Source of the DNA: Streptomyces canus
Lineage (GTDB): Bacteria; Actinomycetota; Actinomycetes; Streptomycetales; Streptomycetaceae
DNA: 64,000 nt
Assembly (NCBI RefSeq): GCF_030816965.1
Contig: NZ_JAUSYQ010000002.1
Span: 6,066,001 to 6,130,000, forward strand
Direction of reading: 5' to 3'
Shown here: one piece after another, positions 5,904 to 26,023 of the stretch
Layout: each line of letters starts with the position of its first letter
Numbering within the stretch: the first letter of the stretch is position 1
The notes under the pieces: generated by a model
Databases searched by the model: none
What the model was told of the DNA's origin: nothing
Seen by the model: only the letters and a program-made list of their open reading frames with translations
Position numbers and translations under genes: made by a program

Positions 5904-6983
5904 TCAGCCCACGACCGTCCAGGTGTCACCGCCGGCCAGCAGGGCCCCCAGATCCCCCTTGCCGTACTGCTCGATCGCCGCGTCCAGCTGGTCCGCCATC
6001 TGGGTGTCGTACACCGGCCGGTCCACCGACCGGAAGACCCCGATCGGGGTGTGGTGGAGCGTGTCCGGGTCGGCCAGGCGGGACAGGGCGAAGGCCGTCG
6101 TGGGGGACGAGGAATGCGCGTCGTGGACGAGGATCTGCGCCTCGTTCGACGGGGTCACCGTGACGACCTTCAGGTCACCCGTCGCCGCGTCCCGGACCAC
6201 GCCCTTGGAGAGGTCCGCGCCGAAGCGGATCGGCTTCCCGTGTTCCAGGCGGATCACCGCCTCCTCGGCCTGCTGCTTGTCCTTCAGGGCCTCGAAGGCC
6301 CCGTCGTTGAAGATGTTGCAGTTCTGGTAGATCTCGATCAGCGCGGTACCCGGATGGGCGGCCGCCTCCCGCAGCACCTGCGTCAGGTGCTTGCGGTCCG
6401 AGTCCACCGTCCGTGCCACGAAGGACGCCTCGGCCCCGATGGCGAGGGACACCGGGTTGAAGGGGGCGTCCAGTGAGCCCATCGGCGTCGACTTCGTGAT
6501 CTTGCCGACCTCGGAGGTGGGGGAGTACTGGCCCTTGGTCAGGCCGTAGATCCGGTTGTTGAAGAGCAGGATCTTCAGGTTCACGTTCCGGCGCAGGGCG
6601 TGGATGAGGTGGTTGCCGCCGATGGACAGCGCGTCTCCGTCACCCGTGACCACCCACACCGACAGGTCGCGGCGCGAGGACGCGAGGCCCGTCGCGATCG
6701 CCGGCGCCCGTCCGTGGATCGAGTGCATGCCGTAGGTGTTCATGTAGTACGGGAACCGCGACGAGCAGCCGATGCCGGAGACGAAGACGATGTTCTCCTT
6801 GGCCAGCCCGAGCTCCGGCATGAAGCCCTGGACGGCGGCGAGGATCGCGTAGTCACCGCAGCCGGGGCACCAGCGGACTTCCTGGTCGCTCTTGAAGTCC
6901 TTCATGCTCTGGCGGGCCTCGGCCTTGGGGACCAGCGTGAGCGCCTCGATCGTGCCCGTGCCTTCCGTGGACGTCTCAGCCAT
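5904..6983 (-). CDS. korB: 2-oxoacid:ferredoxin oxidoreductase beta subunit (KorB)
   Basis: 359 residues. Beta subunit of the CoA-dependent 2-oxoacid (probably 2-oxoglutarate) ferredoxin oxidoreductase, which carries thiamine pyrophosphate and an iron-sulfur cluster. Visible: WCPGCGDYAI (Cys39, Cys42), GIGCSSRFPYYMNTYG (Cys73), the TPP/Mg loop GDGDALSIGGNHLIHALRRN and NNRIYGLTKGQYSPTSE, and the later YQNCNIFNDGAF cysteine. Start ATG at 6983 with GGAGG upstream; it overlaps the korA stop by 8 bp, so the two are translationally coupled. With korA it would convert 2-oxoglutarate plus CoA to succinyl-CoA and reduced ferredoxin in the cytoplasm. Confidence 0.93.
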   Translation of the reverse strand: MAETSTEGTGTIEALTLVPKAEARQSMKDFKSDQEVRWCPGCGDYAILAAVQGFMPELGLAKENIVFVSGIGCSSRFPYYMNTYGMHSIHGRAPAIATGLASSRRDLSVWVVTGDGDALSIGGNHLIHALRRNVNLKILLFNNRIYGLTKGQYSPTSEVGKITKSTPMGSLDAPFNPVSLAIGAEASFVARTVDSDRKHLTQVLREAAAHPGTALIEIYQNCNIFNDGAFEALKDKQQAEEAVIRLEHGKPIRFGADLSKGVVRDAATGDLKVVTVTPSNEAQILVHDAHSSSPTTAFALSRLADPDTLHHTPIGVFRSVDRPVYDTQMADQLDAAIEQYGKGDLGALLAGGDTWTVVG

Positions 6984-8904
6984 CGATGGCCTCCTTCAGA
7001 GCCGTGGCGAGCTGTTCGGCCTTGAACGGCATGCCGTTGACCTGGTTGTAGCTGTGCGCGTCGACCAGGTACTTCGCCCGGACGAGCGTCGCGAGCTGTC
7101 CGAGGTTCATCTCCGGGATGACGACCTTGTCGTAACGCGTGAGCACCGCGCCCAGGTTGCGCGGGAAGGGGTTGAGGTGGCGCAGATGGGCCTGCGCGAT
7201 CGACTCACCGGCCGTGCGCAGCCGGCGGACGGCGGCGGTGATCGGTCCGTACGTCGATCCCCAGCCCAGCACCAGGGTGCGCGCCTCATGCGGATCGTCG
7301 ACGTCCAGATCCGGTACGTCGATCCCGTCGATCTTGGCCTGGCGGATACGGACCATGAAGTCGTGGTTGGCCGGGGCGTAGGAGATGTTGCCCGACCCGT
7401 CCTCCTTCTCGATCCCGCCGATGCGGTGTTCGAGACCGGGTGTGCCGGGCACGGCCCAGGGGCGGGCCAGGGTCTGCGGATCGCGCTTGTAGGGCCAGAA
7501 GACCTCGGTGCCGTCGTCCAGGGTGTGGTTCGGGCCCTGCGCGAACTGCACGCTCAGGTCCGGGAGTTCGTCCAGCTCGGGGATGCGCCAGGGCTCGGAG
7601 CCGTTGGCCAGGTAGCCGTCCGAGAGCAGCATCACCGGCGTGCGGTAGGTCAGCGCGATCCGGGCCGCCTCCAGCGCCGCGTCGAAGCAGTCGGCCGGGG
7701 TGCAGGGGGCGACGATCGGCACCGGCGCCTCGCCGTTGCGCCCGAACATCGCCTGCAGTAGGTCCGCCTGCTCGGTCTTGGTCGGCAGACCGGTGGACGG
7801 GCCGCCTCTCTGGATGTCGATGACGAGGAGCGGCAGCTCCAGGGAGACCGCGAGACCGATGGTCTCCGACTTCAGGGCCACGCCCGGCCCGGAGGTCGTC
7901 GTCACCGCCAGTGAGCCACCGAAGGCCGCGCCCAGCGCCGCGCCGATGCCCGCGATCTCGTCCTCGGCCTGGAAGGTCCGTACCCCGAAGTTCTTGTGCT
8001 TGCTCAGCTCGTGCAGGATGTCCGAGGCCGGCGTGATCGGGTACGAGCCCAGGAACAACGGCAGGTCCGCCTGGCGAGACGCGGCGACCAGCCCGTAGGA
8101 CAGTGCGAGGTTCCCGGAGATGTTGCGGTAGGTGCCGACCGGGAAAGCCTTCGTCGCCGGGGCGATCTCGTAGGAGACGGCGAAGTCCTCGGTGGTCTCG
8201 CCGAAGTTCCAGCCCGCCCGGAAGGCGGCCAGGTTCGCCTCGGCGATCTCCGGCTTCCTCGCGAACTTCGTCCGCAGGAACTTCTCCGTGCCCTCGGTGG
8301 GCCGGTGGTACATCCACGACAAGAGGCCGAGCGCGAACATGTTCTTGCTGCGCTCGGCCTCTTTGCGACTGAGGTCGAAATCCTTGAGGGCCTCGACGGT
8401 CAGCGTGGTCAGGGGGACCGGATGAAGGCTGTAACCGTCGAGCGATCCATCCTCCAGCGGCGAGGCCGCGTACCCCACTTTCTGCATCGACCGTTTGGTG
8501 AATTCGTCCGTGTTGACGATGATCTCCGCTCCGCGCGGCAGATCGGCGATGTTGGCTTTGAGGGCGGCGGGGTTCATGGCCACCAGGACGTTGGGCGCGT
8601 CACCCGGCGTGAGGATGTCGTGGTCGGCGAAGTGCAGCTGGAAGGAGGAGACGCCCGGCAGGGTTCCGGCAGGGGCCCGGATCTCGGCGGGGAAGTTGGG
8701 AAGCGTGGACAGGTCGTTGCCGAAGGACGCGGTCTCCGAGGTGAAACGGTCCCCGGTGAGCTGCATCCCGTCACCGGAGTCGCCCGCGAAACGAATGATC
8801 ACCCGGTCGAGGCGGCGGACGTCCTTCACGCCGGCCTCTTTGCGCTGCTCTCCCACGACGGCTTCGTCGGCCTGCTCCGCTGGGCTGCTGACCTGACTGG
8901 TCAC
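6976..8904 (-). CDS. korA: 2-oxoacid:acceptor oxidoreductase alpha subunit, gamma-alpha fusion (KorA)
   Basis: 642 residues from a GTG with GGGAGGT upstream. The N-terminal ~200 residues are the gamma domain (RFAGDSGDGMQLTGDRFT; FPAEIRAPAG); the C-terminal part is the alpha/pyrimidine-binding domain with GSYPITPASDILHELSKH, FQAEDEIAGIGAALGAAFGG and TTSGPGVALKSETIGLA. This fused layout is the aerobic actinobacterial Kor type, as in Mycobacterium. No separate ferredoxin or delta subunit gene is adjacent. It leads a two-gene operon; a symmetrical 19-bp palindrome lies about 255 bp upstream. Confidence 0.93.
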   Translation of the reverse strand: MTSQVSSPAEQADEAVVGEQRKEAGVKDVRRLDRVIIRFAGDSGDGMQLTGDRFTSETASFGNDLSTLPNFPAEIRAPAGTLPGVSSFQLHFADHDILTPGDAPNVLVAMNPAALKANIADLPRGAEIIVNTDEFTKRSMQKVGYAASPLEDGSLDGYSLHPVPLTTLTVEALKDFDLSRKEAERSKNMFALGLLSWMYHRPTEGTEKFLRTKFARKPEIAEANLAAFRAGWNFGETTEDFAVSYEIAPATKAFPVGTYRNISGNLALSYGLVAASRQADLPLFLGSYPITPASDILHELSKHKNFGVRTFQAEDEIAGIGAALGAAFGGSLAVTTTSGPGVALKSETIGLAVSLELPLLVIDIQRGGPSTGLPTKTEQADLLQAMFGRNGEAPVPIVAPCTPADCFDAALEAARIALTYRTPVMLLSDGYLANGSEPWRIPELDELPDLSVQFAQGPNHTLDDGTEVFWPYKRDPQTLARPWAVPGTPGLEHRIGGIEKEDGSGNISYAPANHDFMVRIRQAKIDGIDVPDLDVDDPHEARTLVLGWGSTYGPITAAVRRLRTAGESIAQAHLRHLNPFPRNLGAVLTRYDKVVIPEMNLGQLATLVRAKYLVDAHSYNQVNGMPFKAEQLATALKEAIDG

Positions 8905-9839: not shown

Positions 9840-10058
9840 CCTGTCCTCCACGACTCTCGGCCCCCCAGCCCACTCCCTGTCCACCCGCTGGACCGGTCCA
9901 GCATTCCAGCATTCGGATCCGGGCGGGCGCGGGCAACGGGATTAGGACCCAGGAATACGAACAAGGACCCGATAACACGGGGTCACACTCGAAATCCGGC
10001 CATCTTCGCCACGGGGGACCGCCCGGGGCCGGGGGACGCCGGTGCCTTGGGGAGGGTG

Positions 10059-10460
10059 GGGCGTCGGGTTGTGCGGGGGTTGGGCGCCACGTAGGGCGGC
10101 GGGTTGTGCGGGGGCAGGTGCCTCGCGGGGCGCCGGGTTTTAGGGGGCTCGGGCGCCGCGCAGGGCGGGTCGGGTTGTGCGGGGGCAGGTGCCTCGCACG
10201 GCGCCGGTTTGGGGGGATCGGGCGCTTCGCGGGGCGTCGGGTTGTGCGGGGGCAGGTGCCTTGCAGGGCGCCGGGTTTTCCGGGGCTCGGGCGCCGCGCA
10301 GGGCGGGTCGGGTTGTGCGGGGGCAGGTGCCTCGCGGGGCGCCGGGTTTTCCGGGTACGGGCACCTCGTAGGGGGCCGAGTCTTGTGGGGACGGGTACTT
10401 CGCAGGGTGGCGCGTTTTGCGGTGGCCGGGCACGTCGCAGGGCGCCGGGTCCTTGCAGGC
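10059..10460. repeat. GC-rich ~35-bp degenerate tandem repeat array (about 11-12 units)
   Basis: About twelve imperfect units of 33-36 bp. Two sub-types alternate: one carries GGGTTGTGCGGGGGCAGGTGC (near 10101, 10172, 10239, 10309), the other GGGCGCCGGGTTTT followed by GGGCGCC-like half sites, so the effective period is about 70 bp. Units end in variants of CTCGCG/CGCGCA. No unique spacers separate the units. The array degrades toward 10380-10460. Many GGCGCC cores are self-complementary, so hairpins are possible. Function unknown. Confidence 0.75.
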
Positions 10461-12725: not shown

Positions 12726-13949
12726 CTACCCCTTGTCCAGACCACGGTCCCGCCACGGCAGCTCCGCCGTGACGACCGTCGGCCCGCCCGGCGGCGAGTC
12801 GATGACGAACAGCCCGTCGACCGCGTCGAGGCGCTCCGCGAGCCCGCGCATGCCGGTGCCGCCGTCGAGCCGGGCTCCGCCGCGGCCGTCGTCCCACACC
12901 TGGATGAGCAGCCGGTTCTCCGAACGCCACACGTCGACCGACGCCGACCGGGCCCCGCTGTGCTTGCTGACGTTCTGGAGCAGCTCGGAGACGGTGAAGT
13001 AGGCGATCCCCTCGATCGCCTGGACCGGGCGCGCGTCGAGGTCGGCGGTCACCTTCACCGGGACCGTGCAGCGCGAGGCGACGCTCGACAGCGCCGCGTC
13101 GAGGCCTCGGTCGGTCAGTACGGCCGGATGGATGCCCCGCGCCAGATCCCGCAGCTCCTGAAGCGCCAGCTTCACCTCGCCGTGTGCCTCCTCGACCATC
13201 GCCTGCGCGTACTCGGGGTCCTCCAGGAGCTTCTCCTTCGCGAGGCCGAGACCCATGGCCAGGTTGACCAGCCGGGCCTGCGCCCCGTCGTGCAGATCGC
13301 GCTCGATGCGCCGCAGGTCGGACGCGGCCGCGTCCACCACGACCCCCCGGTCCGACTCCAGTTCGGCGATACGGCGTTCCAGCTCGTCGGAGGGCGACAG
13401 CAGGCCGCGCACCATCACCCGGTCCACGTTGGCGAGGCCCCGCGCGATGAACGGCAGCACCGGCCACAGCACGAACAACGAGGTCAGCGTGATGGTGAAG
13501 GTGAGCACCCCCCAGGGCAGCCGGATGAAGTCGTACAACACCGTCCGCCAGCCCACGGGGTCCTTCACCCCCATCCACAGCTGGGCGAAGAAGCCGTTGC
13601 CGCCGTTCTTGGCGCGCCACGGCAGACGGCTCGGTTCGTCCACCCGCACGCCGAGCAGCGCCCGGGCCCGCGCCCGCTCCAGCTTGCCCAGCTGCCGTGC
13701 GCCCAGCAGACCCGCCGCGAGCAACGGGAATCCGATCACCGTGACGGTCAGCCAGAAACCGGTGAAGAGCACCGTCACGACGTAGGTGAAGCCGAGGATC
13801 GACACCGGAAGGTTCGCCAGGAGATGCGCGATCTCCTTCCAGGTGTGTGCGTCGTAGGCGAAGCGGGCCGGCGGCGGCCGGCCGTCGTCGGTTCCGTCGT
13901 GTCTGCCGGTGGTCACGGCGCGGCTCGGGGACGAGAGGCGTTCGGTCAT
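12726..13949 (-). CDS. Sensor histidine kinase, HisKA_3 type (paralogue 2)
   Basis: 407 residues from the ATG at 13949 (a longer frame to 14006 exists but adds only a non-conserved Arg-rich stretch; neither has a strong ribosome binding site). A cytoplasmic N-terminus of about 35 residues precedes the membrane sensor region (residues 45-175), then RIERDLHDGAQARLVNLAMGLG with phospho-His220, LLQNVSKHSGAR and WDDGRGGARLDGGTGMRGLAERL of the ATPase domain. It is a tandem paralogue of the next gene. It diverges from nuoA, with about 220 bp between, so its promoter region adjoins that of the complex I operon. Confidence 0.9.
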   Translation of the reverse strand: MTERLSSPSRAVTTGRHDGTDDGRPPPARFAYDAHTWKEIAHLLANLPVSILGFTYVVTVLFTGFWLTVTVIGFPLLAAGLLGARQLGKLERARARALLGVRVDEPSRLPWRAKNGGNGFFAQLWMGVKDPVGWRTVLYDFIRLPWGVLTFTITLTSLFVLWPVLPFIARGLANVDRVMVRGLLSPSDELERRIAELESDRGVVVDAAASDLRRIERDLHDGAQARLVNLAMGLGLAKEKLLEDPEYAQAMVEEAHGEVKLALQELRDLARGIHPAVLTDRGLDAALSSVASRCTVPVKVTADLDARPVQAIEGIAYFTVSELLQNVSKHSGARSASVDVWRSENRLLIQVWDDGRGGARLDGGTGMRGLAERLDAVDGLFVIDSPPGGPTVVTAELPWRDRGLDKG

Positions 13950-14061
13950 ATGGGCTAGCGTGCCGCCCCGGACCGCCGCGCGCCATGAGGCGGACCGCCG
14001 CGGCATACGGGGGAAAACCCCACCCCGGCCTTTCGGACGGCTTTCGGGGGTGACGGGCTGC

Positions 14062-14089
14062 TTACCGTCCCTTTATCAGGGCCTAGACT
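14062..14089 (+). promoter_or_regulatory. Candidate promoter of the nuo operon
   Basis: TTACCG (14062-14067) and TAGACT (14084-14089) are spaced 16 bp. The -10 match to the TAnnnT vegetative consensus is good, the -35 match partial. Transcription would begin near 14096, leaving a ~75-nt leader that contains the direct and inverted repeats at 14111-14146. Confidence 0.4.
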
Positions 14090-14110
14090 CCCGTGCGTAC
14101 AGATCGTCGA

Positions 14111-14146
14111 ACAGTGGTGTTCAGCGTGACCACTGTGTTCAGCGTG
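14111..14146. repeat. Direct and inverted repeats in the nuo leader
   Basis: GTGTTCAGCGTG occurs twice exactly 18 bp apart (14117-14128 and 14135-14146). The first copy is also embedded in a 7-bp inverted repeat, ACAGTGG (14111-14117) and CCACTGT (14130-14136). Placement between the candidate promoter and the nuoA start suggests a regulator or RNA-level site; the sequence shows the repeats, the role is inferred. Confidence 0.5.
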
Positions 14147-14169
14147 CTCACAGGGAGTGAGGGGCGGAC

Positions 14170-14592
14170 GTGCCGGAACCGACCGTCGTCGATGCAACCG
14201 TCGTCGATCCGACCGTCGTCGCGGCGGACTACTTCCAGTCGTACTCGGTCGTCGGGCTGCTCGCCGTCGTCGGCGTGCTGTTCGTCGCGGTCGCCTTCGG
14301 CGCCGGCCGCCTGCTGCGACCCGTGGTGCCCACCCCCGAGAAGCTCCTGACGTACGAGTGCGGAGTCGACCCCGTCGGCGAGGGCTGGGCCCACACCCAG
14401 GTCCGCTATTACGTCTATGCCTTCCTCTACGTCATCTTCGCCGTCGACTCGATCTTCCTGTTCCCGTGGGCGACGGTCTTCGCGGCTCCCGGCTACGGCG
14501 CGACGACCCTCGTCGAGATGTTCATCTTCCTCGGCTTCCTCGCCGTGGGCTTGCTGTACGCGTACAAGAAGGGTGTCCTGACATGGACGTGA
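14170..14592 (+). CDS. nuoA: NADH-quinone oxidoreductase subunit A
   Basis: 140 residues, GTG start with AGGGAGTGAGGGG upstream. Three membrane helices, preceded by a ~22-residue Val/Asp/Thr-rich N-terminal extension. Family landmarks: [15 protein letters not shown] in the first loop and [20 protein letters not shown] in helix 2. The normally conserved FDVE reads FAVD (Ala91, Asp93), so one of two acidic residues thought to matter for coupling is lost. First gene of a ten-gene operon; overlaps nuoB by 10 bp. Confidence 0.93.
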
Positions 14593-15251
14593 ACCCTGCG
14601 GTCGACTCCGCTGCCACGGAGCCCGTTCTGCTTCCGGAGCCGAAACGGCTGGGCGCCCTTGCCCGCCTCGCCCCCGAGCCGATGAAGGTGATCCTCAACT
14701 GGGGCCGCCGGTACTCCCTCTGGGTCTTCAACTTCGGTCTCGCCTGCTGCGCCATCGAGTTCATCGCCGCGTCGATGGCCCGCCACGACTTCATCCGCCT
14801 CGGCGTCATCCCCTTCGCGCCGGGCCCGCGCCAGGCCGACCTGATGGTCGTCTCCGGCACGGTCACGGACAAGATGGCACCGGCGGTGAAGCGTCTGTAC
14901 GAGCAGATGCCCGAGCCCAAGTACGTCATCTCCTTCGGCGCCTGTTCCAACTGCGGCGGCCCGTACTGGGACTCGTACGCCGTGACGAAGGGTGTCGACC
15001 AGATCATCCCCGTCGACGTCTACGTCCCCGGCTGCCCGCCCCGCCCCGAGGCGCTGCTCCAGGGAATTTTGAAGCTCCAGGAGAAGATCGCCCGGGAGTC
15101 GCTGGAGGAGCGGTACGGGTCGTCCGCGGCGCGTCCGTCGGCGGCTGCGCTGCAGAGCGGGTTGGTGAAGCCACCTGCGCCTGGAGCTGGGCCTGGACCT
15201 GGGCCTGCACCGACTTCGACTTCGACTTCGGGCGAGGGGGAGTCACAGTGA
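14583..15251 (+). CDS. nuoB: NADH-quinone oxidoreductase subunit B (N2 cluster)
   Basis: 222 residues. Holds the terminal 4Fe-4S cluster N2; the ligands are visible as Cys55-Cys56 ([10 protein letters not shown]), Cys121 ([14 protein letters not shown]) and Cys151 ([13 protein letters not shown]). After residue ~185 comes a low-complexity tail rich in Pro, Gly and Ser ([16 protein letters not shown]), not part of the fold and reminiscent of the much longer tail on the next protein. Starts within nuoA and ends in a GTGA overlap with nuoC, implying translational coupling. Confidence 0.94.
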
Positions 15252-17191
15252 CCGCCGTCGGTTGGCTCCCCGCGCCCGCCGAGGAACTCTTCGGTCCCGA
15301 GGCCACCGCCGAGGAGTCGTACGAGGTCCTGACCGTGGACGTCCCGCCCACGTCCTGGCTCACGGCACTGCGCGTCGCCCGCGATGACCTGGGTTGCACC
15401 TACTTCGACTGGCTCAGCGCCGTCGACGAACCGGGCATCGGCTTCCGCGTGGCGGCCCACGTGGCGGCCCTCTCCCCGGTACGACGCCTGCTCCTGCGTA
15501 CGACGATCTCCCACGAGACCCCGGTGCTGCCCACCGCCGTCGACATCTACGCGGGTGCCTCCTGGCACGAGCGCGAGACCCACGAGATGTTCGGCGTCAC
15601 CTTCGAGGGCCATCCCTCCCTGAACCACCTCCTGCTGCCGGAAACCTTCGAGGGCCACCCCCTCCGCAAGGACTTCGTCCTGGCCGCCCGCGTCGCCAAG
15701 GCCTGGCCCGGAGCCAAGGAACCGGGCGAGTCCGAACACGGCGGCCCCAAACGCCGCCAGATGCTCCCCCCAGGAGTCCCCGACCCGAACGAATGGGGCC
15801 CCCTGAAGGGCCAACTCCCCCCGGCCCCGACCCGCCCCACCCGCACGGCAGGCCGCCCCCCGACCGAACGCCCGGCCCGCCCCACGGCCGACCGCCCGGC
15901 CCGCCGGGCACGTTCGGCGGCGGAGGGTTCGGCGAGTCAGGCGGAGGTGTCCGGGACGTCGGATGCGGCGGGCGCATCGGGGGCCGGGCCGCGTAGGGCG
16001 CGTACGTCGGCCGAGGGCTCGGCGAGCCAGGCCACGCCCGGGGCGACGGAGGGGGCTCCCCCCGCCTCGCCGACAGGCGTGGCCCGGCACCCACGTACCG
16101 CTGCGCAGGGCTCGGCCGGCCAGGCGGCACCGGATGCCGACGACACCGGTGCCGGTTCCGCAGCCCCAGCCGGCAGCGCACCCGAGTCGGAAGCTCCAGC
16201 AACCGGCTTGCCCGCGTCCACGTCGGACGCCCAGGGGAAGGGCTCGCCCGCACCCGCTTCGGACTCCCCGGCGTCGCCTGCCCCCGCCCCTGAGCATCCG
16301 GGAGCGACGGGCGGTGCGCCGGCCGGACCTCGCCGGGCGCGTACCGCCTCGAGCGGTTCCGCGAGTCAGCGCGCCGCGGCGGCCAAGACCGACCCGTCGA
16401 CCGACGACGCGAGCACGAACCCCGCCCCGCCGAAGTCCCCCACCACCCCTCGCAGCCCGGACGCACCGTGGCACCACGCCCGTCCGGCCTTCGACGACCC
16501 GGAACCGAAGCGGCCTCCCACACCCGGGGAGCCTGGAGTCTCCGAGCGGCCACCTTCGTCCGGGGACGGCGGAGTCTCCGAGCGGCCACCCTCGTCCGGG
16601 GACGGCGGAGTCTCCGAGCGGCCTTCCACAACTGGGGACAGCGGAGTCTCCGAGCATCCCGAGGAGCCCGGGATCTCCGAACGCCCCGAGGGGCCCGAGG
16701 GACCCGAGGTGCACAAGGCCTCCCAGAGGCCGCCGGCTTCGGAAGCCTCCACGGCCCCAGGAGATGAGGACACGCCCGTAGCTTCCGAAGGCTTCGAGGT
16801 TCCGGAGGAGCTGTCGGCTGCCGGTGGTCGCGGGGTTGCGGAGGAGCCGTCGGCTGCCGTAGGTCGAGAGGTTCCGAAAGAGCTGCCAGCTTCCGGTGCT
16901 CCCAAGGCTCCGGAGAAGCCGCCGGTTTCCGAAGAGCCGACCTCCGAGGAGTCCACGACCTCCGAGGAACCCAAGGGCTCCGAGCAGCCCGGGACTTCTG
17001 GGCGTCCCCCGACTTCCGAGGTTCCCGAGGCTCCCGAGGAGTCCCAGGACCCGGAACGCCCAGATGGCACCGACCCGAGCCCCGACCGCACCGCCCAGGC
17101 CTCCGAGGAGCCGGCCCCCGACGAGCCCTCCACCCCCGACACCCCCAGCTCCACCCCCACTCACGACAAGCCCGCAGGAGGCCCGCAGTGA
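15248..17191 (+). CDS. nuoC: NADH-quinone oxidoreductase subunit C with very long repetitive C-terminal tail
   Basis: 647 residues where a free-standing NuoC is normally about 170-250. Residues ~1-165 are the NuoC domain ([52 protein letters not shown]). Everything after ~190 is low-complexity, Pro/Glu/Ser/Ala-rich and predicted disordered, with four imperfect [17 protein letters not shown] repeats (near residues 220, 250, 282, 363) and three 12-residue [12 protein letters not shown] repeats (residues 430-465) encoded by 36-bp direct repeats. It is not a NuoCD fusion: no NuoD-like sequence is present. GTGA overlaps with nuoB and nuoH. Confidence 0.92.
16535..16660 (+). repeat. 36-bp direct repeats inside nuoC
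   Basis: Three consecutive 36-bp units (16535-16570, 16571-16606, 16607-16642) beginning GGAGTCTCCGAGCGGCC and a partial fourth from 16643. The first two differ at a single base, the third diverges in its second half. They encode [16 protein letters not shown] 12-mers in phase, so unit gain or loss would leave the reading frame intact. Confidence 0.88.
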
Positions 17192-18156
17192 ACGGCGCTC
17201 TCGACGTCGCCCTGCGACTCCTGATCGTCTTCGTCGTCTTCCTCACCTTCCCCCTGATCATCGGCCAGACCGAGCACAAGGTGATGGCCCACATGCAGGG
17301 CCGCCTGGGCCCGATGTACGCCGGCGGCTTCCACGGCTGGGCCCAACTCGTCGCGGACGGCGTGAAGTTCGCCCAGAAGGAAGACGTCGTACCGGCGAGC
17401 GCGGACCGCCGTATCTTCCAACTCGCCCCCGCCGTCGCCCTCCTGCCCTACCTCCTGGTCCTCCTCGCCATCCCGATCGGCCCCGGCGAGGGAGCCGTCG
17501 GCGAGGTCGTCGACGCGGGCGTGTTCTTCGTGCTCGCCGTGATGGGCGTGGGCGTCCTCGGCTCCCTCATGGCCGGCTGGGCCTCCGCCAACAAGTTCTC
17601 CCTCCTCGGCGGCCTGCGCACCGCTGCACAGCTCCTCGCCTACGAACTCCCGATGCTGCTCACCGCCGCCTCGGTGGCGATGGCGGCCGGAACCGTCTCC
17701 CTCCCCGGCATCCTCGACGCCTTCGAGTGGTGGTGGTTGCCCTGGCAGATCGTCGGCGCGATCGTCTTCTTCGTCGCCGGCCTCGCCGAACTCCAGCGCC
17801 CTCCCTTCGACATGCCGGTCGCCGACTCGGAGATCATTTTCGGCGCCTACACCGAGTACACCGGCCTGCGTTTCGCCCTGTTCCTCCTTGCCGAGTACGC
17901 CGGAATCGTCGTCCTGTGCGGCCTGACCACCGTCCTCTTCCTGGGCGGCTGGCACGGCCCCTGGGGCGCCGACGGGCTCGGCTGGGTCTGGACCCTCCTC
18001 AAGACGGCCGTGCTCGCCTTCGTCGTCATCTGGCTCCGCGTGACCTATCCCCGTCTGCGCGAGGACCAGCTCCAGAAACTCTCCTGGACCCTCCTCGTCC
18101 CCCTCTCCCTCGCCCAGATCGCCCTCACCGGCATCGTCAAGGTGGTGATCCAGTAA
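17188..18156 (+). CDS. nuoH: NADH-quinone oxidoreductase subunit H
   Basis: 322 residues, about eight membrane helices. This subunit links the hydrophilic and membrane arms and shapes the quinone pocket. The characteristic [38 protein letters not shown] loop is complete, as are the [16 protein letters not shown] start and [12 protein letters not shown] near the end. Start GTG overlaps the nuoC stop. The quinone pocket normally requires NuoD as well, which this operon does not encode. Confidence 0.95.
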
Positions 18157-18158
18157 CC

Positions 18159-18728
18159 ATGGCCCCCATTCCTGGCTCGGGTCTGGCCAAGGGCCTGGCC
18201 GTCACCCTGCGCACGATGACGAAGAAGACCGTCACCGAGCAGTACCCCGACGCCCAGCCCGACCTCCCGCCCCGCACCCGCGGGGTGATCGGCCTGTTCG
18301 AGGAGAACTGCACGGTGTGCATGCTGTGCGCCCGTGAGTGCCCCGACTGGTGCATCTACATCGACTCCCACAAGGAGACGGTCCCGGCGGCGGCCCCTGG
18401 TGGCCGCGAACGCAGCCGCAACGTCCTCGACCGCTTCGCCATCGACTTCTCCCTCTGCATGTACTGCGGTATCTGCATCGAGGTGTGTCCTTTCGACGCC
18501 CTGTTCTGGTCCCCGGAGTTCGAGTACGCCGAGACCGACATCCGCGAGCTCACCCACGAGCGGGACAAGCTCCGCGAGTGGATGTGGACCGTCCCGGCCC
18601 CACCGGCCCTCGACCCCGGCGCGGAGGAACCGAAGGAAATCGCCACCGCCCGCAAGACCGCCGAGAAGCTGGCAGCGGCCCAGGCCGAGCCGGCCCCGTC
18701 GGCCGATCCCCAGGGGGAGGAGTCGTGA
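18159..18728 (+). CDS. nuoI: NADH-quinone oxidoreductase subunit I (two 4Fe-4S clusters)
   Basis: 189 residues, ATG two bases after the nuoH stop. Two classical ferredoxin motifs, [12 protein letters not shown] (Cys51, 54, 57, 61) and [12 protein letters not shown] (Cys100, 103, 106, 110), carry electrons toward NuoB. A charged Ala/Glu/Pro tail of about 45 residues follows the fold. As the entry subunit of the connecting module, it could take electrons from ferredoxin when the NADH module (NuoEFG) is absent; this is inference from complexes of cyanobacteria and some archaea. Confidence 0.95.
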
Positions 18729-19417
18729 CCCTCGCCCAGGCAGCGCACGGTTTCCTCTCCCCGACCGGCGTCGAGATCGCCTTTCTGCTCGTCGGCCTCG
18801 TCACCTTCGGAGCAGCGATCATCACCGTCACCACCAAGCAGCTGGTACACGCCGCCCTGTGGCTGGTGGTGGCCCTCGGCGGCCTCGCCGTCGAATACCT
18901 CCTGCTCACCGCCGAGTTCATCGCGTGGGTGCAGGTCCTCATCTACGTCGGCTCCGTCGTCGTCCTCCTTCTGTTCGGTCTGATGCTCACCAGGGCCCCC
19001 ATCGGCCGCTCCCCGGACGCCGACTCCGGCAACCGCTGGGCCGCCCTCGTCGTGGCCCTTGCGGCGGCGGCCGCTCTGGTCTGGGTGGTCGTCGACGCCT
19101 TCCGCACCACCTGGATCGACCTGGACGGCCCAGCCGCCGGCTCCACCGAGGCAACCGGCGCGAGCCTCTTCCAGAACTGGGTCCTCCCCTTCGAGGCCCT
19201 CTCCGTCCTGCTCCTCGCGGCGCTGGTCGGCGCGATCGTCCTGTCCCGCAAGGCGAAGGCGGAGTCGAGCTCTCCCCCTGTGAACTCCCGAGCCGCGACC
19301 GGTAGTTCCCCATCCGCCGCTGATTCCCGTAATCACACGATCGGGCGAAATGGGCCGGATGCGGGAACCGCGTCGGCCAGGGGAACCGAATCGACTGAGC
19401 AGGAAGGCGCCCGCTGA
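18725..19417 (+). CDS. nuoJ: NADH-quinone oxidoreductase subunit J
   Basis: 230 residues from a GTG that overlaps the nuoI stop. Five membrane helices: [62 protein letters not shown], and two later ones ending near residue 180. The [19 protein letters not shown] block is the NuoJ signature. The last ~50 residues are polar and Ser/Ala-rich, longer than usual. Antiporter-like coupling component of the membrane arm. Confidence 0.93.
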
Positions 19418-19824
19418 TGCACCTCGCCTATCCCGCCGTACTCTCCGCCCTCCTCTTCTGCACCGGCCTCTACGGCGTCCTGGCCCGCCGCAACGCGATC
19501 CTCGTCCTGATGTCGGTCGAGCTGATGCTCAACGCCGTCAACCTGAACCTGGTCGCCTTCGACGTCTGGCTCAGCAGGGCCGCCGAGGAGACCCTGCACT
19601 CCGGCCAGGCCCTGACCCTGTTCACCATCGCCATCGCCGCCGCCGAGATCGGCATCGGCCTCGCGATCGTCCTCGCCGTCCACCGCAACCGCGGCACCGC
19701 CGACATCGACAAGCTCCGCGACACGGCCGAGGGCCACGACCCCGACACCTCCGACGACGACGCCCGCACGGCCGAACAGGCCGCAGAGTCCGGGCGGACC
19801 GGGAAGGCTGAGGCCACCGCGTGA
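19417..19824 (+). CDS. nuoK: NADH-quinone oxidoreductase subunit K
   Basis: 135 residues; the family is normally about 100. Three helices, with both buried glutamates used in proton coupling visible in [19 protein letters not shown] and [19 protein letters not shown]. The final ~40 residues are acidic and Ala/Thr-rich ([18 protein letters not shown]), again an unusual soluble tail. Starts on the last base of the nuoJ stop (TGATG). Confidence 0.94.
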
Positions 19825-21815
19825 CCACGACCACCCTCGCCGTCCTCGTCCCCCTCCTTCCCTTCCTGGGCGCCGCGGCCGGCCTGCTCCTGGGCCGCAC
19901 CGCCCCCGGCTTCGTCCGCCCGCTCGCCGTACTGCCGCTCCTGGTCGCCCTTGCGCTCGCCGCGGTGGTCGCCGTAAGGCAGGGCGGCGGCCAGACGGTG
20001 AACGCCGCCACCGAACTCACCCCGACCGGCTCGGTCCCGATCGAACTCGCCCTGTACATCGACGGCTTCGCCGCCCTCGTCGCCATCCTGGTCGCGTTCG
20101 TCGCCACCTGTGTGCAGATCTACTCGACCGGCTATCTGCGCGACGACCCGCGCTACCCCTCGTACGCCGCTCTCGTCTCCCTCTTCACCTCCGCGATGCT
20201 GCTCGTCGTCTACTCCGGCGACCTGATCGTGCTGCTGGTCGGCTGGGAGGTCATGGGCATCTGCTCGTACTTCCTGGTCGGCCACTACTGGGAGACCCCG
20301 GAGGCCCGCGCCGCCTCCCTCAAGGCATTCCTGGTGACCAAGCTCGGTGACGTCCCCTTCCTGATCGGCCTGTTCGCCATGGCCACCGACGCCGGCTCCT
20401 TCCGGATCACGAAGGTCCTCGACGCCGTCGCGCACGGCGGGCTCGACCACCCGACCCTGATCGCCCTGCTCCTCCTCGCGGGCGTGGCGGGCAAGTCGGC
20501 GCAGTTCCCGCTGCACACCTGGCTCCCCGACGCGATGGCGGGCCCCACGCCCGTCTCCGCGCTGATCCACGCCGCGACGATGGTTGCCGCCGGTGTCTAC
20601 TTCATCGCCCGTCTCCTCCCGGTCTTCGAGGCCTCCCAGGCCGCGATGGTTGTCCTCGCCGTCATGGCCGCCGTCACGATGACCGGTTCGGGTCTCGCCG
20701 CACTCGCCCAGGACGACATCAAGCGTGTCCTCGCCTACTCGACGATCGGCCAGCTCGGTTACATGACCGGCGCCCTCGCCGTCGGCGACCGCGGTGCCGC
20801 CGTTTTCCACCTCCTGTCCCACGGCGCCTTCAAGGCGCTGCTGTTCCTCGCGGCCGGCGTGGTCATCCACGCCGCCGGAACCAACTCCCTGGCCGCCATG
20901 TCCCGTATGAAGGACCTGAGCGCCCGCGTCCCCGACGCCTACTGGACGATGACCGTGGCGCTCCTCGCGCTCGCCGCGATCCCGCCCTTCAGCGGCTTCT
21001 TCTCCAAGGAGTCCGTCCTCGGCGCGGCCGAGCACGTCGCCACCGGCCACACTGAACACGCCCCCGGCGCCGCAGGCTGGATCACCCTCGTCGCCGGCCT
21101 CCTCACGGCCCTGCTCACAGCCGCCTACGCGACACGGCTGTGGCTGCTGGCCTTCCGCGGGCGGGGCACCGAAGCCCCCGACCACGGACGTCAGCCGCTG
21201 ACGATGACCGTGGTCCTCTGGGTCCTCGCGGCCCCGTCCCTCGCCCTCGGCGCGTTCTCCTACCGCGTGCTGCCCGACTGGTTCGACGGCCGCGACCTCA
21301 CCCCGACCCTCACCACCTCCGTCGCCGGCACGGGCGTGGCCCTGATCGGCGGCATCGTCACCTACGCGGCCTGGCGGCACACCAGTACGGTCACGGGCCG
21401 CGTCCCGATGGGTGCGGTCGCCGCCCACCCCGAGGGCGACGCCGGCCTGGTCGAGGCCGAAGCCATCGCCACCCACGAGCCCGCATACGGAGACGTGGCC
21501 TACGCGCCCGACCCCGCGGACCCCGGACGGTTGCTGCTCGGCCCACTGCACCGCCACGCGGCCGTCGGTTTCCACCTGGACGCGCTATACACGGCCCTCT
21601 TCGTCCGCCCGGTCCAGGCCGGAGCCACCCTCGTCCGGTTCCTGGACCGCGAAGTCGTCGAGACCTACGTACGCGGCGCGGGAACACTGCCCCGCTGGCT
21701 CGGCAGCGCCGTACGACGGGCCCAGACCGGCAATCTGCAGACCTATGTGAGCGCGCTGCTCGCCGGCACCGTCGTCCTCGCGGTCGCCGTCGTCCTCGTC
21801 GCCACGGGAGCGTGA
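19821..21815 (+). CDS. nuoL: NADH-quinone oxidoreductase subunit L
   Basis: 664 residues, about 15-16 membrane helices, Mrp-antiporter homologue at the far end of the membrane arm. Visible: [18 protein letters not shown] with the coupling Glu, [38 protein letters not shown] with the channel Lys and His, and [17 protein letters not shown]. The C-terminal part includes the amphipathic lateral helix region and a final hydrophobic helix. GTGA overlap with nuoK, six bases from nuoM. Confidence 0.95.
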
Positions 21816-21821
21816 GCAGGC

Positions 21822-23396
21822 GTGATCGATATCAACGAGTCCGTGATGCAGTTCCTTCTGGCGTTCGTCGTGGCCGGCCCGCTCCTCGGCGCCGTCACGG
21901 CTCTGCTGCCGGCGCCGCCCGGACTGAAGGGGAAGTCGCCGGACCAGGCCGTACTGCGGCACGGGGTGACGGTCACCGGCGTGATCCTCATCGCCGCGAT
22001 CGTCCTGGCACTCGGCTTCGACCACGACCATCCGTCGAAGATGCAGGCCACGACCGACATCAGCTGGATCCCCGCACTCGACGTGCGCATCCACCTCGGC
22101 CTCGACGGCATCTCCCTCCCCCTTCTGGTCCTGACCGCGCTGCTGACCTTCCTCTGCGCGCTCTACTCGTACTTCAAAATGCCCGCGGGCCCCACCCCGA
22201 AGGCCTTCGTCGCACTGCTGCTCATGCTTGAGTCCGGCACCCTCGCGACGTTCGCCGTCCTTGATCTGCTGCTGTTCTTCCTCGCGTTCGAGATGGTGCT
22301 CGTCCCGATGTACTTCCTCATCGCCCGCTGGGGCGGCGAGGAGCGCCAGGCCGCCGCCTGGCGCTTCATCCTCTACACACTGCTCGGCTCGGTCGTGATG
22401 CTGCTCGGCCTGCTCCTGATCGGGATCAAGGCGGGCACATTCGACATGGTGGCACTCGCCACTGACAACGGCCGGTCGCTGTCCGCATCCGTGCAGGTCA
22501 TCGCCGTTCTGGCGATCGGGATCGGGCTCGCGGTCAAGACCCCGATGTGGCCGCTGCACAGTTGGCTGCCCGACGCCCACACCGCCGCGCCGACCGTCGG
22601 CTCGGTCCTGCTGGCCGGCGTCCTGCTGAAGATGGGTACGTACGGGTTCGTCCGGATTCTGCTGCCGATCGCCCCCGACGGCTTCCGCGAGTTCGCGCCC
22701 TACCTCGCCGCCTTCGCCGTGGTCGGGATCATCTACGGATCCCTGGCCTGCCTCGCCCTCGCCAAGCGTGGCGCGAAGGGCGATCTCAAGCGGCTCATCG
22801 CCTACTCCTCCGTCGGCCACATGGGTTTCGTCCTGCTCGGTATCGCCACCATGACCCCGACCGGCGTGAACGGCGCCCTGTTCGCCAACATCGCGCACGG
22901 CCTCATCACCGGCCTCCTGTTCTTCCTGGTCGGAGCCCTGAAGGACCGCACCGGCACCACCGACCTCGACACCCTGGCCGAGGAGACCGGCGCCGCCCTG
23001 TACGGCAAGGCCCCGCGCCTCGGCGGCCTGCTGGCCTTCGGTGCGGTCGCCTCGCTCGGCCTGCCCGGCCTCGCCGGATTCTGGGGCGAGATGCTGGCCC
23101 TGTTCGGCGCCTTCAAGCCCGCCGACGACCTCAGCCGCCCCGCCTTCCTCACCTTCATGGCGATCGGCGCGTTCGGCACCCTCCTGACGGCCGCGTACAT
23201 GCTCGTCGTGGTCCGCCGCGTCTGCATGGGCGCCGTACCCCAGGACGCCCCCCAGCTCGCCGACGTCCACACGTACGAGTTCGCGGCCTGGACGCCGCTC
23301 GTCGCCCTCACCGTCGCGGCGGGCCTGTGGCCGAAGGCCCTCCTCGGCCTCACCGACCCGGCCGTCCAGCAGCTCCTCGCAGGAGGCACCCGATGA
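21822..23396 (+). CDS. nuoM: NADH-quinone oxidoreductase subunit M
   Basis: 524 residues, GTG start, about 14 helices. Antiporter-like subunit: LLFFLAFEMVLVPMYFLIARWGG with the key Glu, VKTPMWPLHSWLPDAHTAAPTVGSVLLAGVLLKMGTYG with Lys, and LKRLIAYSSVGHMGFVLLG. Full length and without frame damage. ATGA overlap with nuoN. Confidence 0.95.
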   Translation: MIDINESVMQFLLAFVVAGPLLGAVTALLPAPPGLKGKSPDQAVLRHGVTVTGVILIAAIVLALGFDHDHPSKMQATTDISWIPALDVRIHLGLDGISLPLLVLTALLTFLCALYSYFKMPAGPTPKAFVALLLMLESGTLATFAVLDLLLFFLAFEMVLVPMYFLIARWGGEERQAAAWRFILYTLLGSVVMLLGLLLIGIKAGTFDMVALATDNGRSLSASVQVIAVLAIGIGLAVKTPMWPLHSWLPDAHTAAPTVGSVLLAGVLLKMGTYGFVRILLPIAPDGFREFAPYLAAFAVVGIIYGSLACLALAKRGAKGDLKRLIAYSSVGHMGFVLLGIATMTPTGVNGALFANIAHGLITGLLFFLVGALKDRTGTTDLDTLAEETGAALYGKAPRLGGLLAFGAVASLGLPGLAGFWGEMLALFGAFKPADDLSRPAFLTFMAIGAFGTLLTAAYMLVVVRRVCMGAVPQDAPQLADVHTYEFAAWTPLVALTVAAGLWPKALLGLTDPAVQQLLAGGTR

Positions 23397-24946
23397 GCAC
23401 CCTGGTCGCCATCGCTCAGCCATTGGCTTCTTCGGCCGAGCCCCTGGCCGCGAACCTCGTGCAGTCCGTCGACTGGCTCGCGATCGCGCCACCCACCCTC
23501 ACGGCGGTCGTCGGACTCGTTGTTCTCGTCGCAGACCTTTTCGTCGGCGAGCAGAAGAAAGCCCTGCTCGGGTGGTTCTCGGTCGCGGGCCTGGCAGCCT
23601 CCGTGCTCCTGCTGCTCCCCCTCCTGGACGGCGACCGCAGCACCTTCTGCCTGACCGGCGACGCCGACGTGTGCAGCTATGCGGCCGACCGCTTCACGCT
23701 CGTCATCCAGTTCCTCGTCCTTGGCGGCGCCCTCCTGGCGGCCCTCCTGTCGGTCACCACCCTCAAGGACGCCGACAAGAGACTCCCCGAAGGGGAGTAC
23801 TGGTTCCTGCTGCTCTCCTCGGCCGCCGGCGCCGCACTCCTGCCCGCCTCCCGAGACCTGGCGACCCTCGTCGTCGCCCTGGAAGTCGCCTCCCTGCCCG
23901 CCTTCGCCCTCGTCGGCATCCGGCACGGCGACAGGAAGTCCTCCGAAGCGGCCCTGAAGTTCTTCCTTTCCTCGGTCACCGCGACCGCGGTCAGCCTCAT
24001 GGGCATCAGCTTCGTGTACGCCTCCACGGGCACCCTCTACCTCACACAGGTCGCCGACCGCATCCAGAACGTCGACGGACAGCTCCACACCCTCGCCCAG
24101 ACCGGCGTCGTCCTCACCCTCGTCGGCTTCGCCTTCAAGACGGCCGCCGTCCCCTTCCACTTCTGGGTGCCCGACACCTACGTAGGCGCACCCCTCCCGA
24201 TCGCCGCCTACTTGTCGGTCGTGGGCAAGGCCGTTGGCTTCTCCGGCCTGATCCTCGTCACCGTCGTCGCCCTGCCGTCGTACGCCGACGTCTGGGGCCC
24301 GGCGCTCGCCGCGCTCGCCGCGCTCACCATGACCGTCGGCAACGTCGGCGCCCTCCGACAGCAGGCCACGCGCGCGTACAGCGCCGTACGGCTGCTCGCC
24401 TGGTCCTCCATCGGCCAGGCCGGCTACCTCCTCGTCCCGATCGCCGCCGCCGCGTACTCCGACGACGCCGAGCGATCCGTCGGCTCCACCGTCGCCTACG
24501 CCCTCATGTACGCCGCCGTGAACCTCGGCGCCTTCGCGGTGGCCGCGCTGGTGGGCCGCACGAGGGCCGCGAACCGCATCACCGACTACCGCGGCCTCTA
24601 CGCGACCAACCCGCTCGCCGCCCTCCTCCTGGCCTTCTTCCTGCTCTGCCTGGCCGGGCTGCCGCCAGGCATCATCGGCCTGTTCGCCAAGGTCACCGTC
24701 TTCTCGGCGGCCGTGGACGCGGGCCTCGGATGGCTCGCCGTGGTCATGGCCGTCAATGTCGTGATCGCGCTCTTCTACTACCTCCAGTGGACGACGCTGC
24801 TGTTCAGGGCCCCCGAGGGCGAACCCGCCGCGCACCGCGTCCCCGCCCCCCTCACGGCCGCGCTCGCCCTGACCGGCGTCCTCGGTGTCGCCCTCTCGGG
24901 CGCGCCCCAGCTCGTGTTGCGCTTCACCGACACCGGACTCTTCTGA
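23393..24946 (+). CDS. nuoN: NADH-quinone oxidoreductase subunit N
   Basis: 517 residues from the ATG at 23393 overlapping the nuoM stop. About 14 helices; LVVALEVASLPAFALVGIRHGDRKSSEAALKFFL, AFKTAAVPFHFWVPDTYVGAPLPIAAYLSVVGKA and SAVRLLAWSSIGQAGYLL are the NuoN landmarks with Glu and Lys channel residues. Last gene of the operon; no nuoD, E, F or G follows, and the next gene (htpX) is 213 bp away. Confidence 0.95.
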   Translation: MSTLVAIAQPLASSAEPLAANLVQSVDWLAIAPPTLTAVVGLVVLVADLFVGEQKKALLGWFSVAGLAASVLLLLPLLDGDRSTFCLTGDADVCSYAADRFTLVIQFLVLGGALLAALLSVTTLKDADKRLPEGEYWFLLLSSAAGAALLPASRDLATLVVALEVASLPAFALVGIRHGDRKSSEAALKFFLSSVTATAVSLMGISFVYASTGTLYLTQVADRIQNVDGQLHTLAQTGVVLTLVGFAFKTAAVPFHFWVPDTYVGAPLPIAAYLSVVGKAVGFSGLILVTVVALPSYADVWGPALAALAALTMTVGNVGALRQQATRAYSAVRLLAWSSIGQAGYLLVPIAAAAYSDDAERSVGSTVAYALMYAAVNLGAFAVAALVGRTRAANRITDYRGLYATNPLAALLLAFFLLCLAGLPPGIIGLFAKVTVFSAAVDAGLGWLAVVMAVNVVIALFYYLQWTTLLFRAPEGEPAAHRVPAPLTAALALTGVLGVALSGAPQLVLRFTDTGLF

Positions 24947-25021
24947 ACCGGCCCTCCCGAACCTGAACAGTCGCCCTTGACCCATCACCCGGACGGCCCA
25001 CCTGGGCCTCCGCGCGCACAA

Positions 25022-25048
25022 GGGAACTAGTGACCCTCGCCTGGCGTT
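25022..25048 (+). promoter_or_regulatory. Candidate ECF-sigma (SigR-like) promoter of htpX
   Basis: GGGAAC (25022-25027) and GTT (25046-25048) are separated by 18 bp, the geometry of the Streptomyces SigR thiol-stress promoter (GGGAAT-N18-GTT), with the last -35 base differing. It precedes the htpX start by about 110 bp. HtpX is a membrane-stress protease, so stress-sigma control is plausible but unproven. Confidence 0.4.
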
Positions 25049-25159
25049 GAGCAAAACGGGAGGGTCCACTGGACGTGACATCACGGACCGGTGGCATCGG
25101 AAGACATCGGAGATCAGCAAGCAAAGGGTTCCTCTGCTGCACCACTTGGAGGGCGTACC

Positions 25160-26023
25160 GTGCACCGCCGGCACAACGGGCTCAGGACCGCAGTCCTCCT
25201 TGGGGGACTGTCCGCACTCATCATCGTCATCGGCAGTTTCTTCGGCCGCATGGGGCTGGTGGTGGCCGTCCTGATCGCGCTGGGCACCAACGCGTACGCG
25301 TACTGGAACAGCGACAAGCTGGCTCTACGCGCGATGCGTGCCCGCCCGGTGAGCGAGTTCGAGGCACCGGCCCTGTACCGCATGGTCCGCGAGCTCTCCA
25401 CCCAGGCCCGTCAGCCCATGCCGCGCCTGTACATCTCGCCGACCGAGGCACCCAACGCCTTCGCGACCGGCCGCAATCCGCGCAACGCCGCCGTGTGCTG
25501 CACCGACGGCATCCTGCGCATCTTGGACGAGCGCGAACTGCGCGGTGTCATCGGCCACGAACTCAGCCATGTCTACAACCGCGACATCCTGATTTCGTCG
25601 GTCGCCGGCGCCCTCGCCTCCGTGATCATGTTCCTGGTCAACTTCGCCTTGCTGATCCCGATCGGCCGCTCCGACGACGATGACGGCCCGGGCATCCTCG
25701 GCATGCTGATGATCATGATCCTCGGACCGCTCGCGGCCAGCCTCATCCAGATGGCCATCAGCCGCTCCAGGGAGTACGAGGCGGACGCGTCCGGAGCCCA
25801 GCTCACCGGCGACCCCCTCGCGCTCGCCAGCGCGCTGCACAAGCTCGAAGTGGGCACCAAGCAACTGCCGTTGCCCCCCGAACCGCGCATCGAGACGGCG
25901 AGCCACATGATGATCGCGAATCCCTTCCGCCCTGGCCAGGGACTGTCCAAGATGTTCTCGACGCACCCGCCGATGGCGGAGCGCATCGCCCGGCTCGAGA
26001 AGATGGCAGGTCGACCCCGATGA
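25160..26023 (+). CDS. htpX: HtpX-type membrane zinc metalloprotease
   Basis: 287 residues from a GTG with GGAGG nine bases upstream; a 23-residue longer frame to 25091 lacks such a site. M48 family: [11 protein letters not shown] gives zinc ligands His133 and His137 and catalytic Glu134; [11 protein letters not shown] supplies the third ligand Glu205. Hydrophobic hairpins near residues 12-45 and 150-200 anchor it in the membrane. It degrades misfolded membrane proteins under stress (family knowledge). ATGA overlap with the YccF-type gene shows co-translation. Confidence 0.93.

Follow-up and report, generated by a model that had tools for sequence, protein, structure and literature searches.

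A distant nuoD2 gene and a probable eleven-subunit complex I of the nuo2 operon in Streptomyces canus

A stretch of 64,000 nucleotides from the Streptomyces canus genome (the window) carries ten contiguous genes, nuoA-B-C-H-I-J-K-L-M-N, all in frame on the + strand at 14170-24946. This operon, nuo2, has no nuoD, nuoE, nuoF or nuoG gene, which raises the question of where its NuoD comes from and what kind of complex I it encodes. The ten nuo2 products and a second NuoD encoded elsewhere in the genome, NuoD2, quite probably build one dedicated complex I of 11 subunits without the module for reduced nicotinamide adenine dinucleotide (NADH), probably fed by ferredoxin. The gene set, the co-occurrence of the genes, the self-sufficiency of the complex in one genus and the residue changes described here are read from the sequence. 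Positions without a prefix refer to the window, and the prefix C2 marks contig coordinates in the genome.

NuoD2 and its association with nuo2

The genome has 10.66 megabases and contains a fuller complex I operon of 14 genes, nuo1, at ~C2:6013422-6029494. Its nuoA-D and nuoH-N are named by comparison with nuo2, and nuoF by PF01512 at C2:6017464. The proteins of the two operons share only 28-52% identity, and nuo2 is therefore an old paralogue and not a recent copy. A whole-genome PF00346 search finds two NuoD genes, both outside the window: nuoD1 (C2:6015573-6016430) in the 14-gene operon, and nuoD2 (C2:5826204-5827352) about 253 kilobases (kb) upstream of nuo2. An earlier note on this DNA, made from its letters, had proposed a genome-wide count of nuoD copies, which comes to two. 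The note was right that nuoD, nuoE, nuoF and nuoG are missing from the operon; its view that NuoD itself is lacking does not hold, and the idea of an enzyme that has no NuoD is rejected because a full paralogue exists in the genome. NuoA, B, C, D and H-N are all encoded, and the place of nuoD outside the operon concerns gene layout, not the make-up of the enzyme. The D-less ten-gene order is found again in other actinobacterial families, so the layout is no assembly accident.

NuoD2 has 383 amino acids (aa), shares 36% identity with NuoD1 and can be aligned along its length to NuoD chains of solved structures. Its bit scores do not place it nearer to hydrogenase large subunits than to NuoD, with 284 bits for Thermus thermophilus NuoD, 143 and 173 for the membrane-bound hydrogenase Mbh and the 6u8y chain, and 153 for formate hydrogenlyase. 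The closest relatives among the matches listed are from Streptomyces, the nearest being S. canus with 98%. In print, nuoD2 has already been named as separate from the cluster (PMC3765725, PMC8388888; papers are cited throughout for the available parts of their text).

Co-occurrence was followed in 296 genomes of the class, with NuoH2 counted at an identity of at least 61% or as two fragments (G021), and NuoD2 at an identity of at least 59% or as a long fragment. NuoD2 is present in 70 of the 72 genomes with NuoH2, and the completeness of the remaining two is 72% and 80%. The Fisher P value of this association is 1e-46, and 3e-31 outside the window's genus, for lineages that are not independent. 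Within that genus, all 28 genomes have both proteins. The loci are never adjacent, and nuoD2 and nuoH2 lie 88-745 kb apart in the 18 same-contig cases.

Read from its genes, the genus g77 provides the strongest evidence for a complete 11-subunit assembly of Nuo2 with NuoD2, and against the hybrid complex suggested in PMC9239103. Its two genomes, G128 in 60 contigs and G304 in 2, each have a completeness rating of 100%. Each genome has all ten nuo2 genes and a single NuoH, and NuoD2 is the sole PF00346 gene. There is no nuoD1 and no second nuoH in either. That no NuoE, F or G is needed is seen there for NuoF (PF01512, 0 of 2), the NuoE and NuoG families not having been searched. The Nuo2 complex of this genus can borrow neither NuoD1 nor NuoF, because neither is found. 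Both genomes carry the nuo2-type Trp of NuoD2, Ala of NuoA2 and Val of NuoH2 discussed below.

In the hybrid complex suggested for Streptomyces coelicolor, the nuo2 products borrow NuoD, E, F and G from the 14-gene operon (PMC9239103). This is compatible with the presence of at least two NuoH genes in 28 of 28 genomes of the window's genus, and with the opposite shifts of nuo and nuo2 expression in a mutant (PMC9239103). It is nevertheless unlikely, given that nuo2 is whole in two genomes where nuoD1 and nuoF were not found, that nuoD2 accompanies nuo2 almost throughout the sample, and that several quinone-site positions set the NuoD1 and NuoD2 classes apart. The suggestion of the earlier note that NuoD is borrowed from the housekeeping operon becomes improbable on the same counts. 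Another proposal is that NuoL2, NuoM2 and similar subunits swap as isoforms into the main complex (Moody et al., PMC3765725). The same paper reports that nuo2 is transcribed as a single operon with conserved antisense RNA over nuoL2/nuoM2, the latter being in favour of exchange. However, a full quinone (Q) module (B2, C2, I2, H2) together with D2 would be superfluous for this purpose, and nuo2 is retained in g77 without nuoD1 and nuoF, which leaves isoform exchange a very small chance.

Residue changes, maturation and electron path

The residue comparison covers 57 NuoD2, 99 NuoH2 and 73 NuoA2 loci with 51, 97 and 71 distinct sequences, respectively. The quinone-binding Tyr87 of NuoD (T. thermophilus numbering) is Trp in 57/57 NuoD2 and Tyr in 19/19 NuoD1, while its quinone partner His38 is retained in 56 of the 57 NuoD2; the canonical pair of His and Tyr is thus broken. 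The residue equivalent to Escherichia coli NuoH Glu216 is aliphatic in 99/99 NuoH2 (Val 57, Ile 36, Leu 5, Met 1) and Glu in 17/17 NuoH1, and the Arg37 equivalent is His in 99/99 NuoH2. Asp79 of NuoA is replaced by Ala in 72 of 73 NuoA2 and retained in 19/19 NuoA1. The number D79 for NuoA2 Ala91 is our own and comes from a uniform shift of 12 residues relative to Lys46 and Glu51 (K46/E51) of E. coli NuoA. The exceptional NuoA2, with the canonical Asp, belongs to G034 (L080, L185), where NuoH2 and NuoD2 are of the nuo2 type and a second NuoH2 lies on another contig; it is possibly an intermediate.

In the literature, the NuoD tyrosine is called strictly conserved (review, PMC8119997), and E. 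coli NuoH Glu216 and NuoA Asp79 are described as lying near quinone site 2 and as a carboxylate switch point, respectively (PMC13324432). The chloroplast and cyanobacterial relatives, which are taken to use ferredoxin, keep the NuoA Asp in four alignments, and loss of the NADH module alone therefore does not explain the NuoA change.

On the other hand, the residues for electron transfer and most of those for pumping are retained. The iron-sulfur ligands are invariant, with four cysteines in 84/84 NuoB2 and eight in 96/96 NuoI2. The equivalents of NuoH Glu157, 228 and 241 are present in 99/99 NuoH2, both NuoK glutamates in 77/77, and the checked Glu and Lys of NuoL and NuoM in 87/87 and 84/84. 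NuoN2 retains Glu164, Lys249 and Lys433 in 81/81 and Lys279 in 78/81 sequences; its exceptions include position 332, taken up below. Most of the Nuo2 pump thus looks intact, and the link from the quinone site to the pump appears changed.

NuoD2 may also need its own maturation factor. In the window genome, nuoD2 stands tail to tail with a gene that matches PF02636 (62 bits, cut-off 23) and resembles COG1565 structures and an NDUFAF7 homologue, the similarity being weak (E 6e-7 to 2e-4). Of the 23 nuoD2 loci examined, 21 (all but L046 and L052) have a homologue of this MidA-type methyltransferase no more than 5 kb away, and the two open frames abut or overlap in seven. In a separate survey of 21 nuoD2 neighbourhoods, gene calling placed the methyltransferase in 12, among recurring folate and pantothenate genes (FtsH 9, FolB/FolK 9, DUF3180 7, DUF2520 12, PanC 9). 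The arginine targeted by NDUFAF7 (motif HRG) is present in 57/57 NuoD2 and is Thr in 19/19 NuoD1. NDUFAF7 dimethylates Arg85 of NDUFS2, the mitochondrial NuoD homologue, and is required for assembly (PMC3829151); T. thermophilus has Thr at this position, and E. coli has an unmodified Arg (PMC3750175). NuoD2 resembles the mitochondrial system in its PF02636-type neighbour and HRG arginine, and NuoD1 resembles T. thermophilus in its Thr. In contrast to the methylation known for NDUFS2, that of NuoD2 is predicted from genes and from weak enzyme similarity. From this arrangement we infer that MidA serves NuoD2.

The assembly of the 11 subunits, the ferredoxin donor, the menaquinone acceptor and the methylation are likewise inferred, and together they would give the following path. 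Electrons would be supplied to the two 4Fe-4S clusters of NuoI2 by a soluble donor of low potential, with reduced ferredoxin the likeliest candidate, and would pass from there to cluster N2 in NuoB2. N2 would then reduce an acceptor, presumably menaquinone, at a quinone-type site made by NuoD2, NuoB2 and NuoH2, and this reaction would drive proton pumping by NuoL2, NuoM2 and NuoN2. NuoD2 would probably be readied for assembly by the MidA-type enzyme encoded nearby, which would methylate an arginine. With confidence falling a little short of even, Nuo2-NuoD2 may be a naturally occurring complex I that operates in the absence of the NuoD Tyr, NuoH Glu216 and NuoA Asp79, through another proton route or with another electron acceptor, and in which a bacterial MidA arginine methyltransferase matures NuoD2.

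The donor and the distribution of NuoD2

Several points weigh against a dedicated, ferredoxin-fed complex. The Nuo2 and NuoD2 proteins and their complex are known from genes alone. At position 332, all 81 NuoN2 have Val, Leu, Ile or Thr in place of the Lys that NuoN1 carries as part of a Lys-Arg pair. Further points concern the donor and the occurrence of NuoD2 and are given with the evidence to which they belong.

The genes for KorAB, a 2-oxoacid:ferredoxin oxidoreductase, lie divergently upstream of nuo2, with a two-component system in between. A place for KorA was obtained in 56 of the 72 NuoH2 genomes (46 on the NuoH2 contig, 10 on another contig) and not for the other 16, and in 45 of the 46 same-contig cases it lies within 15 kb of NuoH2. 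However, three genomes with nuo2 (G128, G304 and G246) have 0 matches to PF01855, and KorA flanks nuo1 in some nuo2-free genomes, e.g., G154. On these two grounds KorAB is rejected as a proven or obligate donor. A complex of the same 11 subunits may instead have a donor other than ferredoxin, e.g., reduced coenzyme F420 (F420H2) or NADPH acting via an unlinked reductase, or may run in reverse and make reduced ferredoxin from proton force. This possibility, which overlaps the ferredoxin-fed complex and differs in the donor only, has perhaps one chance in three. The missing PF01855 genes and the altered quinone-site residues support it. On the contrary, KorAB is the only recurring redox neighbour noticed at nuo2, where not all neighbours were identified, and ferredoxin has been proposed or described for other complexes without the NADH module (PMC11238625). 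Ferredoxin is the best guess for the Nuo2 donor, with the chances for and against it about balanced.

KorA also bears on the history of the two operons. It lies between nuo1 and nuo2 in G024 (L069), G006 (L070) and G068 (L071), and nuo1 and nuo2 are neighbours in G246 (L063) and G034 (L080). This proximity suggests an ancestral joint nuo1/nuo2 cluster. A second KorA gene, G000:C2:8687215-8689074, is 88% identical to the KorA query derived from L077 and lies far from nuo2.

NuoD2, at an identity of at least 59%, is also present in 20 genomes without NuoH2, and it therefore has, or had, another use. In G016, G161, G030, G013, G064 and others (L041-L054), such NuoD2 keeps the Trp and the Arg, usually with MidA nearby, and more divergent NuoD2 occurs in small genomes as well. 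A further 25 genomes have NuoD2-like proteins of 38-54% identity, which were kept out of the table of occurrence; six were read, all with Trp. The earlier note had named a cluster-specific nuoD elsewhere in the genome as a finding that would speak against its reading: nuoD2 exists, although its match to nuo2 is not exclusive.

These genomes could mean that NuoD2 mainly serves something else, for example as an alternative D of the main complex, and that nuo2 uses any NuoD present. The nuo2-free occurrence, mostly with MidA nearby in the loci read, and the more divergent forms of small genomes speak for it. It is rather improbable, as no other NuoD is found in g77, the more divergent nuo2-free cases show drift at residue 164, and NuoD2 conservation, measured against NuoD1, is lower in genomes without nuo2. 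For this last comparison, NuoD1 served as the clock in genomes chosen among those with a NuoD1 place given, and G024 (no NuoD2 stretch) and G119 (no NuoD1 stretch) were dropped. Outside the window's genus, the median difference between NuoD2 and NuoD1 is +3.3 identity points in eight genomes with nuo2 and -3.4 in nine without (P=0.0037). The comparison is small and its genomes are not independent, and when five genomes of the window's genus are added the nuo2 median falls to -0.2 (P=0.019). No loss of NuoD2 conservation is seen in G013 or in the nuo2-free G016 and G030. The distances of NuoD2, NuoB2 and NuoH2 correlate across 14 genomes (r 0.63-0.82; NuoD2-NuoH2 0.82), which shared species history alone could also yield.

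The operon, its surroundings and described complexes

The genes of nuo2 and the upstream KorAB are listed in Table 1. Each nuo2 protein matches its own Pfam family above the curated cut-off, NuoI through 4Fe-4S models together with NuoI models. The earlier note had described ten contiguous in-frame genes with overlaps mostly of 1-10 base pairs (bp), and the coordinates and Pfam matches bear this out, with overlaps at seven of nine junctions and gaps of 2 bp at H/I and 6 bp at L/M.

Table 1. Genes of the nuo2 operon and the KorAB genes in the window
Gene	Position	Strand	Features
KorB, 2-oxoacid:ferredoxin oxidoreductase beta	5904..6983	-	TIGR02177 247.6 bits, below cut-off 261.9; candidate ferredoxin source, context only
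KorA, 2-oxoacid:ferredoxin oxidoreductase alpha	6976..8904	-	TIGR03710 646.1 bits, cut-off 482.75; context only
nuoA2	14170..14592	+	140 aa; PF00507; Ala91 vs Asp in NuoA1
nuoB2	14583..15251	+	222 aa; PF01058; aligned to solved NuoB homologues; four N2-cluster cysteines retained
nuoC2	15248..17191	+	PF00329, 115 bits vs cut-off 22.5; domain at residues 30-148 and long low-complexity tail
nuoH2	17188..18156	+	322 aa; PF00146; Val211 vs Glu and His30 vs Arg in NuoH1
nuoI2	18159..18728	+	189 aa; NuoI models below cut-offs, Fer4 above; eight cysteines, two 4Fe-4S clusters
nuoJ2	18725..19417	+	PF00499
nuoK2	19417..19824	+	PF00420; membrane glutamates E35 and E77 both retained
nuoL2	19821..21815	+	PF00361/PF00662
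nuoM2	21822..23396	+	TIGR01972 555.6 bits, cut-off 263.8
nuoN2	23393..24946	+	PF00361; TIGR01770 305.8 bits, below cut-off 332.6

The tail of NuoC2 (15743-17191) consists of Pro/Ser/Glu-rich repeats; it extends 482 aa past residue 165, where the median of 87 loci is 35 aa, and is the longest of them. Upstream of nuo2, about 4-6 copies of a G-rich repeat of 69-71 bp occupy 10058-10444 between the response regulator and histidine kinase genes. A consensus promoter scan of 13900-25200 gives no match, which carries little weight in Streptomyces. Some lineages have genes inserted within nuo2; the representatives of recurring clusters read by eye include no redox module, and many single inserts (e.g., L061, L062, L066 and L146) were not identified. 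In expression studies, nuo2 abundance is reported to be higher in S. coelicolor than in Streptomyces lividans (PMC9739823), whose source names only SCO4562-75 in its available part (PMC8981147).

An additional NuoF as partner is rejected on the second PF01512 match of G000, which sits in a formate-dehydrogenase-like stretch, presumably a cluster for an NAD-dependent formate dehydrogenase; a third match lies at L086. A third PF01058 gene is rejected as a NuoB, since it resembles what we take to be a NiFe-hydrogenase small subunit. A further locus, L206 (G000:C2:331000-350999), has NuoA-, NuoH-, NuoL-, NuoM- and NuoN-like genes and perhaps encodes a complex related to energy-converting hydrogenases.

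The cluster is the same as the Streptomyces nuo2 (SCO4599-SCO4608) with a separate nuoD2, for which PMC3765725 lists nuoA2, B2, D2 and H2-N2; the list in PMC8388888 is alike, with nuoJ written differently. Both published lists, in their available text, are without NuoC2, and PMC9239103 states that nuo2 lacks NuoC and NuoL, whereas NuoC2 and NuoL2 are present here. Compared with nuo2, the 14-subunit nuo1 of the same genome has homologous subunits and shares most pump residues; unlike nuo2, it has the canonical Tyr, Glu216 and Asp79 and a NuoF. The proposal in the earlier note of a different machine is borne out in that nuo2 is distinct and without an NADH module; its premise of an absent NuoD is not.

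Once nuoD2 is added, the subunits and gene order match those of the 11-subunit nuoABCDHIJKLMN type, e.g., of Desulfitobacterium hafniense, which also has no NADH module (PMC11238625). In contrast to that type, nuoD here lies at a distant site and the complex usually occurs alongside a 14-subunit enzyme. Three coupling residues are replaced here, the Desulfitobacterium residues not having been compared. The actinobacteria that bear nuo2 are presumably aerobic. In the available literature on the second streptomycete complex I, on 11-subunit enzymes and on an actinobacterial connection of MidA and NuoD, neither the residue signature nor the MidA link nor a nuo1-free genus was found described.

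How quinone reduction drives the distant pumps of complex I is still debated, and current models give the NuoD tyrosine, the NuoH carboxylates and NuoA Asp79 important parts (PMC8119997, PMC13324432). A widespread and conserved enzyme in which all three residues are replaced and most pump residues are kept is a ready test of these coupling models. The result also places the missing NuoD and offers a possible role for this streptomycete cluster, whose function is called unclear (PMC9239103).

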